A DNA stretch of 64,000 nt from Nannobrachium achirus (lineage: Eukaryota; Chordata; Actinopteri; Myctophiformes; Myctophidae): NCBI GenBank assembly GCA_963921795.1, contig OY997660.1, forward strand, positions 2,218,745 through 2,282,744. Direction: 5' to 3'. Made by a program: the position numbers and the translations under genes. Within the stretch, counting starts at the first letter, position 1. The number at the start of each line of letters is the position of its first letter. Below are positions 957 through 62,113 of this stretch, piece after piece. The notes under the pieces were generated by a model. That model searched no databases. It had not been told where the DNA came from and saw only the letters and a list, made by a program, of their open reading frames with translations.

Positions 957-2098
957 CAGGGCTGCCAAGTCTCACGCTTTGAGCGTGAGAGTCACGCAAT
1001 TTAACCTCTTCTCACGCCACACGCCACACATGCCATTTCTCACGCATTTTTACAGCCATCCCACAGACCTCTCACGAAAGTTGTGGGGGTTTTCTCACTC
1101 GGTAAAAGTCGCACAGAGAATTCAGCGCAGTGAATGCAGCGCAGTGAATGCAGCTGCTCTACTCCTCCACTCTCTCTCCCCTCTACACATACACACATGC
1201 AGGCGACGGAGCAAGAGAGAGAGAGGCAGCTCTACAGACGGCGGGTGCTGCGATGCTTTCTCGCTTTGATCTGCGGGGCCGGCCGGCCGGGGATCGCGCC
1301 GCCCCCGCGGTGGAGAAACACACTCGCTCCGCGAGTAAACGTCGGGCGATATTTCACAAAGATGACCACAATCCAGCTCTTGCCTCCCGCGAGCGCATGC
1401 ACGAACGAGACCACGCGCAATAATTTCATGGGTTACTATATCCACTTGTCTTGAACCCTAATAGCCTGCCCTATCCCCTCCCCATATTCTGAGGAGGGCT
1501 TTAGAAGAGATAGCCTACGGCGGTTTGCACCAACACTACTACTCTACTAGAGGGAAGAATCCCAGTAGCCCAGTGGTTCTCAACTTGTGGGTCGGGACCC
1601 CCAGGGGGGTCCCCAAATTATGTTGTGGGGGTCGCCATGATTAACTTAATGTGCAACATTGTTTTCTCAGTCAACAGTAAACAAACCAACATAAAGTTTA
1701 AGTGTATAGAGGGTATCTGCACATTTCTAAAGTGACAATCTAAGGAGAGTTATTAAAAAGAATAGCTCTAAAATGACAAATTAAACATTGGCCAAATTGT
1801 CAAGTATTAGAGGCAGACATTGTGAAAATAGCAGATCTACATGTTCACATGTATCTGCTATTTTCACAGTAGAACCGTGTTATACAAAATGTTGCCTGAA
1901 CTGGAGGGGTCCCCAGTTAAAATATGATTATTTTGGGCGCTCGAAATCCGTCTGCGCCAACCAACTTAAGCCCCACACGCCACGAAATCGCTCTAAATCG
2001 ATGTTAAAAAGGCCAAAAAATGTCGCGCCCCCCCCCCCCCCCCCCCCCCCCAAAAAAAATGTCTCACTCTTAAAAATTTCTGGAACTTGGCAGCCCTG
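957..2098. mobile_element. DNA transposon (non-autonomous) with 14-bp terminal inverted repeats
   Basis: The left end CAGGGCTGCCAAGT at 957-970 is exactly complementary to the right end at 2085-2098. No long transposase frame lies between. Flanking octamers (catggagc and tgtagctt) do not match, so no target-site duplication is visible; the left flank is minisatellite and the right flank is Artemis exon sequence, so a rearrangement or deletion is likely. A second hAT-type element is nested inside. The ends look hAT-like (CAGGG) but the superfamily is not certain. Confidence 0.6.
1571..1937 (+). mobile_element. hAT-type MITE, right end missing
   Basis: Begins with CAGTGGTTCTCAAC and continues with sequence shared with the more complete copy at 12913-13257. 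The similarity stops near 1937, before the complementary right terminus. It contains an internal hairpin at 1821-1867 with 16-bp arms (TGTGAAAATAGCAGAT and its complement). Confidence 0.7.
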
Positions 2099-2108
2099 TG
2101 TAGCTTTG

Positions 2109-2216
2109 GTCCCCGAACCACATGGTTGAAGGTTTGATGCTGATGATCCGATATGGAGTTCCATCTGGAGCCGCTTGGCCACAGGGCAGCCTGTTGCCAC
2201 GGAGATACTCCTCATC
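2109..2216 (-). pseudogene. dclre1c: Artemis exon (DEEYLR...STMWFG), cut by a transposon
   Basis: Read on the minus strand the segment encodes DEEYLRGNRLPCG, then IISIKPSTMWFGD. This matches the part of the metallo-beta-lactamase/beta-CASP nuclease Artemis that follows the HACRHPK segment. The 3' splice acceptor is intact: a (GT)n tract then GCAG, with AG at 2217-2218, starting a phase-0 exon that fits the phase-0 end of the exon at 10740-10806. Similarity to Artemis stops after WFGD; a few unrelated codons follow and then the transposon terminus at 2098. No donor GT is visible and no downstream exon appears between here and position 1. Artemis opens V(D)J hairpins and works in non-homologous end joining. 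Identity rests on remembered family sequence; I infer a broken copy. Confidence 0.8.
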
Positions 2217-2303
2217 CTGCACACACACACACACACATGTGCGCACGCACGCAGGCACACACACGCATGCACGCATGCACACACGCACGCACACACGCAC
2301 GCG
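2217..2303. repeat. (CA)n/(CACG)n microsatellite
   Basis: Alternating CA and CACG/CATG units directly upstream (minus strand) of the Artemis exon. They form its polypyrimidine-like acceptor tract. Confidence 0.9.
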
Positions 2304-2684
2304 TTTACATTGCTATGACATTTTTTAATCATAAGCCTAAAGCCCAAAAACGGCAGATCTACAAGCTAACAAAGTTTGTACTTAAGTACAATATACTTTT
2401 GGAAAATGCTGGAATTGTTTTCATGGTTTAAACTAAAGCGAAATAAAATCTCTTGACTGAAAAGGTTTGTTAGACCACCAGACTGTGATTTGCAGCAGTC
2501 ATCAACATGTCCTTACACAGACACGTGTCTGTGGCAAATTCTCCATTTTCTGTTCTGCACCCCATTATAATGTTCACATCATAAGACCCACTTACTGAGT
2601 GACTCCAGGTCTCCAGGTTTTAATCACAATATGTATGACACTCATTTACTACCAGTAAGACGCCTCAGGGAACCATGTCTTGGC
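2304..2684. other. Non-coding, no gene seen
   Basis: Unique-looking AT-rich sequence. A half copy of the recurrent hairpin core (GCAGATCTACAAGCT) sits at 2353-2367. Nothing else recognised. Confidence 0.5.
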
Positions 2685-3110
2685 CATCTGGCCAGTGATG
2701 TATATCGGACCAGTTACCCATATATGGAGTCCCCTGGTACCCATATATGGAGATCCATGTTCTGTATATGGAGATATGCTGTGAGAGCCCAAACATGCTT
2801 ACTCTGTTATTCGTTATGTGAAAGTCCTATGATGTCTATGACATCTGACATCATACCCTTTTATGCCCATACATGGAGATCCCTGTCTGTAGAACCAGCC
2901 ACACAGATATGGGCTGTCTTGGCTATCTGCCATGGCCATATATGGGTTCTGTTAGTGTGGTATGTGGCCAATGTGACCTCCATATATGGGCATTCCTATA
3001 TGAAGTCCTGTTAGATATGGGCTTAATATTGATGACATCAGGGAATTCCAAAGGAATTCCATATGTGGGCATAAAAGGGATTCTGTTAGTGTGACATCAC
3101 AGTGAAGCCA
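2685..3110. repeat. Degenerate repeat rich in CCATATATGG palindromes
   Basis: Four exact CCATATATGG decamers at 2718-2727, 2741-2750, 2936-2945 and 2980-2989, plus near matches (CCATACATGG, CCATATGTGG), within diverged units. A related block at 15300-15560 is in inverted orientation; both share the sequence around ATCGGACCAGTTACCC. The decamer equals the SRF CArG-box consensus, but the repeat context suggests an old transposon or minisatellite. Confidence 0.6.
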
Positions 3111-3218
3111 GAGCATGATGTCAGAGCAGCAAACCCATAGACAGTAAAAAAGTGTACACGTCGAGACAGACGGACACTAAACTGTGACCTTCGGTTGCAA
3201 TGACACTATGACACATTA

Positions 3219-3272
3219 TGAGTGTGTGTGTGTGTGTTTGTGTGTGTGTGTGTGTGTGTGTGTGTGTGTGTA
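3219..3272. repeat. (GT)n microsatellite
   Basis: About 26 GT units with one TTT interruption. Confidence 0.95.
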
Positions 3273-3726
3273 TATGAAGCGCGATCCGTGCCTCTTCAGC
3301 GCAGCGACGCACGGGTGCAGCATGGCTTTTTGTTTACATATGCGTGCGTGCATGCATGCGTTAGTTCTGCTCCAGTGGCACTCGTGGTGCACACGATTGC
3401 TCTGCGATGGTACGCGTCCCATGTCCTGTAACGATGCCATGCAGCCACGGAGGTACGCGTGACGCGTCTTGTAAAAAAATAAATAAATAAAAAATGTCTG
3501 TAAATGTACAGTGATTCTTATGGTTTCATTGTAGCCTATTCATTTTAAGCTCTAACTCATTCATGAACACAAGGGTCCATTTGGTTTCATCTTATGTTCT
3601 AAATAAAATAAAGGTTAACGTCAGTCTTGCCTGACTTTCATGAGGGCAGAGGTATAGGCCTACTTTTTCTTTTTCTTTTTTTTTCGGTGATATGCACGGC
3701 AGCACGTCATTACTTTCTTACTGACA
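3273..3726. other. Non-coding, no gene seen
   Basis: A CpG- and GCGT-rich stretch to about 3470, then AT-rich sequence with (AAAT)n and a T-run near 3660-3690. No supported feature. Confidence 0.4.
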
Positions 3727-3730
3727 GTGG

Positions 3731-60530: not shown

Positions 60531-60593
60531 GCATCAACCACTTTAACCCTTCATCGACCGGTGTCTCCCAGGGCTCTATACCCTCCACACTCC

Positions 60594-60667
60594 AAAATAG
60601 CCGATCTACAACTTCACAACACGTCGCAGCACGATGTGTTGAGAGCTTGTAGATCTGCTATTTACGG
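60594..60667. repeat. Hairpin core copy
   Basis: AAAATAGCCGATCTACAACT and CTTGTAGATCTGCTATTT, inner stem CACAACACGTCG / CGATGTGTTG. Confidence 0.8.
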
Positions 60668-60837
60668 TAAATGTTCACGTATTGAGACATGTCCAACATT
60701 GGGACGCAGGGTTTAAATGGTTAATGGTTCAAAGAAGGTTCTTTGAGGAACCATGTGTGGTTGTGAGTTGTAGATCTGATATTTGGGCGGGCGGACATAT
60801 CTCAGATCTTAATGGGTTAACCGCTTAAGCCTTATTT

Positions 60838-60927
60838 CAAATATAGTGAAAATAGCAGATCTACAAGCTCACAACGCCCCACACTGGTGCATTGTGAGCT
60901 TGTAGATTGGCTATTTTCACTATATTT
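60838..60927. repeat. Hairpin core copy with long arms
   Basis: AAATATAGTGAAAATAGCAG and its near-perfect complement at the right. Arms extend beyond the core by the copy-specific AAATATAGTG / CACTATATTT. Confidence 0.9.
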
Positions 60928-61090
60928 AAGCAGTTCTGTTTTAATGCATTTTTTTGGGGGGAAATGTTTTTAATTTAAATACAAAAATGCATTGATGGAA
61001 TATAAAAATTGCTGTAGTTGTAATTTGTACATTTAATACTTGCGTATTTACTGGAGTAACACTTTCAGGACATAAAAATGTCCAAACATG

Positions 61091-61498
61091 GAATAAATTC
61101 CTTCTCAAGACATTTCCTCACTAATGTGTTTGTAAAGATGTCTAGTAACACATTTCATTTAATAAATTCCTTCTCAAGACATTTCCTCACTAATGTGATT
61201 GTAAAGATGTCTAGTAACACATTTCATTTAATAAATTCCTTCTCAAGACATTTCCTCACTAATGTGTTTGTAAAGATGTCTAGTAACACATTTCATTTAA
61301 TAAATTCCTTCTCAAGACATTTCCTCACTAATGTGATTGTAAAGATGTCTAGTAACACATTTCATTTAATAAATTCCTTCTCAAGACATTTCCTCACTAA
61401 TGTGATTGTAAAGATGTCTACACATTTCATTTAATAAATTCCTTCTCAAGACATTTCCTCACTAATGTGATTGTAAAGATGTTTAGTAACACATTTCA
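61091..61498. repeat. 69-bp minisatellite
   Basis: About six units of AATAAATTCCTTCTCAAGAC, TTGTAAAGATGTCTAGTAAC and so on. The unit length is a multiple of three, giving a spurious frame. Confidence 0.93.
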
Positions 61499-61654
61499 AA
61501 AGGTTGAAACTCCCCTAGGCAGGGGTGTCACACCAAATTCTGGGCCCTGGGTACAAGGATTCACTGCGGGCCCCCCATGAATGTTCTTCATAGGCGAGGG
61601 GGTTTAACCCATTTAGACTGGGAACGTATTATTACGCATTATGTTGTGCTTTAA

Positions 61655-61737
61655 CTATTGAAAAATAGCAGATATACAAGCTCACCGTGTGGCACCGAGT
61701 GCCGCTCTGCGAGCTTGTAGATCTGTCATTTTTGAAA
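61655..61737. repeat. Hairpin core copy
   Basis: AAAAATAGCAGATATACAAG / CTTGTAGATCTGTCATTTTT with inner GGCACCGAGTGCC. Confidence 0.8.
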
Positions 61738-61792
61738 AATTGTGAAATCCTTCAAAATATTTTTTTTGAAAACCCTTTTTTTTCTATGTCAG

Positions 61793-62113
61793 TGGTGCTC
61801 AAACCTTTTCATGTGAAGGACCCCCAAAATGATATGTATTTGGCCACGGACCCCCATCTCAATATATTTAGTTCCAGGGACCCCTCAGAAGCAAAACTTG
61901 AGTTACAAAATACATATATTCAAAGATTTGCACACATTTTAGCGACTTTAAAAAAATAGCAGCTCTACAAGCACGCAACGCGGCACTCGGTGCCGCGCTG
62001 TGAGCTTGTATATCTGCTAGCTTTCAATAGTTAAAGCATAAAATACTTTTGGGCCCTAAATGGTGTTTTAAATGGTCTCTCTAGGGGTCCCCAACCCCAG
62101 TTTAGAACCACTG
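61793..62113 (+). mobile_element. hAT-type MITE with hairpin
   Basis: Ends CAGTGGTGCTCAAAC / GTTTAGAACCACTG. Hairpin 61955-62022 with inner stem CGCGGCAC / GTGCCGCG. Flanking octamers do not match. Confidence 0.82.

Follow-up and report, generated by a model that had tools for sequence, protein, structure and literature searches.

Why should one and the same hairpin recur inside transposable elements whose ends are quite different, and do its two arms really change in step? The question is raised by a stretch of 64,000 nucleotides from the myctophid fish Nannobrachium achirus (GCA_963921795.1, contig OY997660.1, positions 2,218,745 to 2,282,744), analysed here in full and called the window, in which an earlier note had described a recurrent hairpin core in elements that it took to be hAT transposons. 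We consider, with a probability of roughly 0.55, that the hairpin is one homologous palindrome, inherited as an internal, subterminal part of piggyBac-type elements and shared among several families of non-autonomous DNA transposons, where it would serve in recognition by the transposase. Its hosts are not all hAT as had been supposed: the clearest carriers appear to be TTAA-flanked miniature elements of piggyBac type, and hAT-like elements and a family with other ends carry the hairpin too.

A common palindrome in families with different ends

The core, AATAGCAGATCTACAAGCTC, is 20 nt long. Its recurrence in the window is borne out, but the number given before (about 30) was too low, since 44 matches were found at up to five mismatches, compared with 0 for the reversed sequence and 0, 0, 0, 2 and 1 for five mononucleotide shuffles. 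The recurrence extends to the whole 1.66-Gb genome, where a search at up to three mismatches gave 396,340 forward and 396,561 reverse matches (about 793,000), against 9 + 19 for the reversed pattern; at this threshold the window, with 0.64 arms per kb, is slightly richer than the genome (0.48). Moreover, all of the 14 stretches that had been listed as hairpins fold, at -24.3 to -66.6 kcal/mol, which confirms the original observation. A sample of 338,160 bases, in which the window was joined by 25 loci of ten kb each at fixed coordinates and 8 loci of three kb picked by a core match, contains 267 arms at up to six mismatches, of which 113 are unpaired and the others form 77 facing pairs. The gap between the two cores is exactly 27 nt in 34 of the 77 pairs and shorter in 31 of the remaining 43. 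The layout is a 20-nt core, usually a 27-nt tip, and a second 20-nt core, with some family-specific outer stem. At locus L004 (599-743), a half-hairpin is present as a tandem array of six 25-bp head-to-tail units based on the core (CACAGCAGATCTACAAGCTGTAAGT). An Rfam scan of the window gave 0 matches at the gathering score, and the hairpin is not assigned to a known structured RNA; a tRNA search, and a megablast of window positions 1-8000 against plasmids, gave no lead.

Clustering of the outer flanks in the sample separated at least six host families. One of these, family B, is a hAT-like miniature inverted-repeat transposable element (MITE) with the ends CAGGGGTCTTCAACAGGGGGTCC (also given as CAGGGGTCTTCAA) and TTGAAGACCCCTG, inside which lies a module of 187-211 bp (TTAACCACTTGAACCC ... 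hairpin ... GGTTCAAGTGGTTAA) with TTAA-type ends, TTAACCACTTnAnCCC. The ends of family C are TTAACCCATTTAGG, and its copy at L001, 600 bp long, is bounded by TTAA on either side and has one hairpin close to each end. Family D starts with CAGTGGTTCTCAA, and family F shows CAGTGGTGTAAAGTAAC in three of four aligned copies. CAG-type terminal repeats are present in the outer part of family B and in families D and F, all of which we take to be hAT-like on this account. Family A has neither CAG-type ends nor TTAA: it starts with TCGTC[AG][CT]TGTCGG and ends in GACGA, and of 16 copies scored, 7 have TA on either side, five of these seven sharing one outer flank. Counted in the genome by one flank word at up to two mismatches, family A has 36,757 places, B 22,159, C 41,375 (control 25) and D 19,602. 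The hairpin was found across the copies of each family; one homologous core is thus common to families with different termini, as had been claimed, and the families differ mutually on both arms.

TTAA-type hosts and piggyBac-type transposase genes

A second word, AACC[AC][CA]TT, is shared as well. Aimed at the hairpin, it has 30 matches in 29 of 154 flanks, where 2.6 are expected, with 1 in the opposite orientation, the count including repeated family copies. It lies 33-48 nt from the core in 17 of the 30 matches and 92-95 nt from it in 6. Nine candidate elements are bounded by this word (two of them overlapping alternatives), and six of the nine have TTAA at both ends, namely those at L002, L018, L027 and L030 (the module of family B), L001 (family C) and L026. 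In TTAA-type elements the hairpin often lies 33-48 nt inside an end. The hosts may also belong to another TTAA superfamily, such as Kolobok. When the flanks of family B were joined as they would stand in the module's absence and searched for, two places matched (control 0). One of them, L094, is a copy of family B in which a lone TTAA occupies the position of the module, between hAT-like sequence to either side; because of this empty site, we regard the hairpin-bearing unit of family B as an element of TTAA type that lies nested within a hAT-like MITE. L095 was dropped as a second empty site, for it matches family B on the right side only.

These results also bear on whether the hairpin could be a small mobile element itself, inserting into transposons and elsewhere, which we judge very improbable. 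The many different hosts, and the 9 of 77 sampled hairpins with both flanks unclustered, would suit such an element, but copies of each tested family hold the hairpin or a remnant of it (when flanks of A, B, C and D served as probes, one or the other came next in nearly every copy reaching that point, and a few ended in different sequence), its borders are inverted and show no direct repeat, and the sole empty site found belongs to the larger TTAA module.

The genome contains at least 116 matches to piggyBac-type transposase (PF13843), many with open frames of more than 500 aa. In 3,304 bases beside two such genes, the first gene has a full hairpin on its 5' side and the second a single arm on its 3' side. 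The hairpin of the first gene, searched as a 47-mer, has six exact copies (two on contig C1 and one each on C11, C14, C17 and C473), all of them precisely 495 bases upstream of a PF13843 match in that set, and four more with 1-2 mismatches elsewhere. From the six exact copies at a fixed offset it follows that the hairpin is present in a multicopy family whose transposase frames are open.

The same 3,304 bases, in pieces L096-L099 (C9:33260000-33260900, C9:33262400-33263200, C1:44416700-44417500 and C1:44418950-44419750), contain no TTAA at all, where 19.6 are expected from the 25 sample loci, and among 391 sample windows of this size none (0/391) is free of TTAA. Some other AT words are low there too, and none of those counted is missing from all four pieces. 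The lack of TTAA could mean that the element avoids its own target site.

Several results weigh against a piggyBac-type palindrome with a role in transposition. The three arms seen beside the two transposase genes compare with about 1.9 by background, and therefore these hairpins alone are no evidence. None of the transposases was linked to the ends of family B or C in the sequence covered, which stops short of the autonomous elements' ends, and families A and D have no TTAA ends around the hairpin. The single empty copy stands among some 22,000 flank matches and fits an unoccupied ancestor as well as precise excision. In addition, the terminal inverted repeats start with CCAC in B and CCCA in C, whereas the piggyBac hallmark given in the available part of PMC2872659 is CC[C/T]T; one element with CCCA is also included there. 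Furthermore, the arms in family D are hardly more conserved than the flanks, with 0.035 and 0.051 substitutions per non-CpG site against 0.050-0.076 (29 of 40 copies, the remaining 11 not aligning through the hairpin); these copies, like those of family A discussed below, had a perfect flank word and were the first places listed on contig C1, which may favour young copies.

The nearly equal rates in family D equally suit a hairpin that is a functionless passenger and seems conserved merely through common origin, the families descending from one old element or having exchanged the segment by palindrome-mediated recombination. The stretch L027:677-957, in which a family B left flank, a hairpin remnant and a reversed family A left flank are joined, points the same way, for it looks as if two elements had recombined at the hairpin. 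However, the arm consensus sequences of A, C and D are identical at 25-28 of 32 positions, yet their flanks fall in separate clusters, and the hairpin keeps its preferred place near AACC[AC][CA]TT. We regard a mere passenger as conceivable and rather unlikely.

Do the arms change in step?

The paired differences that the earlier note had quoted do exist, but they lie between families, and ongoing paired change within these is not supported. Arm matches were counted at 15 core positions per arm in 77 hairpins of families A (25), B (10), C (18) and D (24); 36 of 113 hairpins lie outside these families, and hairpins without either 15-nt arm were uncountable. Families were assigned by 10-nt outer flanks at up to four mismatches, by which one of the 18 rows of C (L031:8380) looks misassigned, and the row at window position 60851 was moved by hand to the hairpins outside families A-D. 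When arms were shuffled within families, the observed 1034 matches hardly differed from the mean of 1031.2 (standard deviation, sd, 3.3) and were reached by 1165 of 5000 shuffles, so that no excess of paired change is seen at this level; per family, the observed value was reached in 2756 (A), 5000 (B), 4746 (C) and 251 (D, borderline) of 5000 shuffles. Shuffling across families, in contrast, gave a mean of 1001.5 (sd 5.6), and the observed value was reached by none of 5000. Departures from the family sequence in these 77 hairpins affected one arm in 88 cases, both arms as a pair in 2 and both arms without pairing in 7. The whole stems of 37 full-length hairpins (the 87-nt hairpins of A, C and D alone, 18, 11 and 8 respectively), compared at 32 positions, gave 1105 matches versus 1105.2 after shuffling (sd 1.7), with 52 one-arm, 0 paired and 2 unpaired double departures. 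As for power, in simulations of the outer arms a copying of 10% of one-arm changes was detected in 50 of 60 runs and of 20% in all 60. Moreover, a stable mismatch persists in family A: in 14 of 25 copies AGCAGATC stands in the arm next to GTAGTGAA and AGCCGATC in the opposite arm, with 0 reversed; the same mismatch is found in 5 of 10 copies of family B, with one reversed.

Since there is no excess within families and an excess appears once they are pooled, the co-changes are differences fixed between family founders. The matching arms are a founder effect: each family began from a matching copy, with no continuing mutual correction. The earlier note had itself named, as speaking against it, a phylogeny with one ancestral hAT consensus and no excess of paired changes, and the result comes close to this, an excess appearing only on pooling. 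Its view, that all copies are still subject to selection for a fold, of DNA or RNA, or to arm-to-arm gene conversion, draws on the pooled matches that beat every shuffle and on the borderline family D; set against it are the four families without excess, the full-length stems without a paired departure at good power for 10% copying, and the mismatch held in one arrangement in family A, which make it highly unlikely. Continuing arm-to-arm correction in particular is rejected on the first two of these grounds. That the founders differ on both arms may be due either to selection on rare source copies or to one-off arm copying.

Changes at the tip

Within families it is the tip of the hairpin that changes, by inversion of the loop and by central deletion. 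Among full-length copies the loop triplet is GGT-like in 8, ACC-like in 8 and GAT in 2 of family A, 11 and 0 in family C, and 4 and 4 in family D (two assigned with one mismatch). Genome-wide, searched with family-specific left arms at up to one mismatch, the two orientations number 10,351 versus 5,479 in A and 30,008 versus 904 in C, so the inverted share is 35% in A and 2.9% in C. On a tree of 18 family A flanks built without the hairpin, loop orientation needs 4 changes (bootstrap 4-5), and none of 200 bootstraps gave a single origin; after shuffling, 6.1 changes are needed on average, and 31-39 of 500 shuffles need as few. Loop orientation in A was likely inherited in part and changed repeatedly, which is not firmly resolved because just one inner branch of the tree is well supported. 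In the aligned copies of family D, the mean deleted share is 0.51 over the central 31 positions, compared with 0.16 and 0.36 in the outer arms; for two parts of the 3' flank it is 0.23 and 0.06. The copies whose loop orientation was counted (15,830 in A and 30,912 in C) amount to an extensive natural archive of inversions at inverted repeats, and the shares in the two families are very unlike.

A proposed mechanism

If the palindrome is inherited as we propose, TTAA-flanked piggyBac-type miniature elements would be its clearest carriers, some of them nested in hAT MITEs and multiplied along with these. Source copies would retain the palindrome as an aid to the transposase in holding the element end, and because they keep it, families would differ by paired changes while dead copies would decay in each arm separately. 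Loop flips and central deletions would arise by template switching or by hairpin extrusion in replication; the available text of PMC8604942 describes spacer inversion and arm homogenisation as arising when short inverted repeats undergo template switching. The hairpin may be a grip site of old standing, where the enzymes mobilising such elements take hold. According to the accessible part of PMC11707139, transposases of the piggyBac superfamily bind subterminal palindromes via cysteine-rich domains, and by analogy the hairpin might be bound by transposase in this genome. If several superfamilies share such a site, this would explain how dissimilar miniature elements rose together to very high numbers.

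A bolder version, which we hold to be unlikely, is that the hairpin is a portable palindromic transposition signal of at least 67 bp and of piggyBac-type origin, recognised in trans and taken up by at least three kinds of elements (TTAA-type, hAT-like and family A), giving unrelated miniature elements the same mobilising machinery. Were this true, it would rank among the genome's most numerous non-coding modules and be a core domain of DNA transposons comparable to the conserved domains of short interspersed nuclear elements (SINEs).

Other features of the window

Unless a locus is named, coordinates in this section are window positions, and the elements and hairpins are given on the + strand. 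Family D is represented by a tip-deleted hairpin at 1821-1867, in a hAT-like host that begins at 1571 with CAGTGGTTCTCAA, and has a relative in the full-length hairpin at 27241-27313, whose host spans about 27128-27387. The hairpin at 29749-29810 has an AGACCTCCA arm and a relative at L010:7388-7454. There are two family A elements: 31577-31806, with a half hairpin (core at 31672), and 42645-42911 (TCGTCACTGTCGGGC...GACAA end), with a full-length hairpin at 42752-42842. A short hairpin at 35211-35254 is duplicated at 49331-49375, and a tip-deleted hairpin of family B at 37285-37341 is duplicated at 51546-51613. These two pairs are not independent, as they lie in duplicated segments about 93% identical, which belong to a segmental duplication within the window (33363-37548 versus 46886-51813, main blocks about 89-97% identical); several repeats there are therefore counted twice. 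At 57236-58554 lies a hAT-like element of family B in which tandem repeats of 31 bp accompany the remnant of a hairpin (core at 57384). Family B hAT-like elements hold long arrays built from a 29-31-bp unit (GGGGTCCCTGCTTCATCTCTCTCTCAACTAA), at 51788-52673 and 57689-58527, and a family B element includes, at 57524-57604, a perfect inverted repeat of 40 nt whose spacer is a single nucleotide and which is unrelated to the core.

Further on, the full-length hairpins at 58993-59073 and 60219-60299 form a mirrored pair (arms 58954-59081 and 60212-60339). A candidate TTAA-type element at 60534-60820 (TCAACCACTTTAACCC ... AATGGGTTAA) has the hairpin 60594-60667 inside, the hairpin at 60838-60927 has 10 nt of additional outer stem, and a family C element with approximate ends at 61604-62068 contains the hairpins 61655-61737 and 61955-62022. 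The window also carries two reverse transcriptase reading frames of the long interspersed nuclear element type (one of 1293 aa, the other split in two) and a PRY-SPRY frame, at 21339-25217 (-), 54237-56943 (+) and 59347-60117 (-).

Comparison with known systems

Stem-loops can form in the Angel elements of fish and in the internal inverted repeats of Tol2, some of them inside a hAT element, and the hairpin may be likened to these. No earlier description of the hairpin was found in literature listings, searched without repeat databases and most subscription papers. A conserved non-coding module common to elements of different kinds is the V domain of SINEs, carried also by the MER6 MITE (available part of PMC6887750), but that module is of retroelement origin and no hairpin study is reported there. 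In piggyBac and piggyBat a palindrome likewise lies inside the TTAA element ends and is bound by the cysteine-rich domains of the transposase (PMC11707139, in the text accessible); it is short (19 bp in piggyBac), whereas the palindrome here measures at least 67 bp and is a candidate binding site. With template switching in yeast (PMC8604942, as far as its text is available) the hairpin shares recurrent spacer inversion, the loop inversion being common here, but the yeast cases are coding genes in which arm homogenisation was seen, and within our families it was undetected.

The nearest precedent is provided by the CMITEs of Acropora corals, which, in the portion of PMC2872659 available, are TTAA-flanked MITE families linked to piggyBac-like transposons, with an interior more conserved between families than the ends. 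The CMITEs are about 100 bp long and number about 1,600 copies in A. millepora, far fewer than the counts here; the words palindrom, hairpin, stem and secondary structure are absent from the text available, whereas the interior here is a palindrome, and the hairpin is found also in elements with other ends. If the hairpin is a grip site common to several superfamilies, the question raised by the CMITEs, why the interior of a MITE can outlast its ends in conservation between families, would become testable. By this analogy, the hairpin would work like the interior of a CMITE, but one that is palindromic, far more numerous and present also in elements with other ends.

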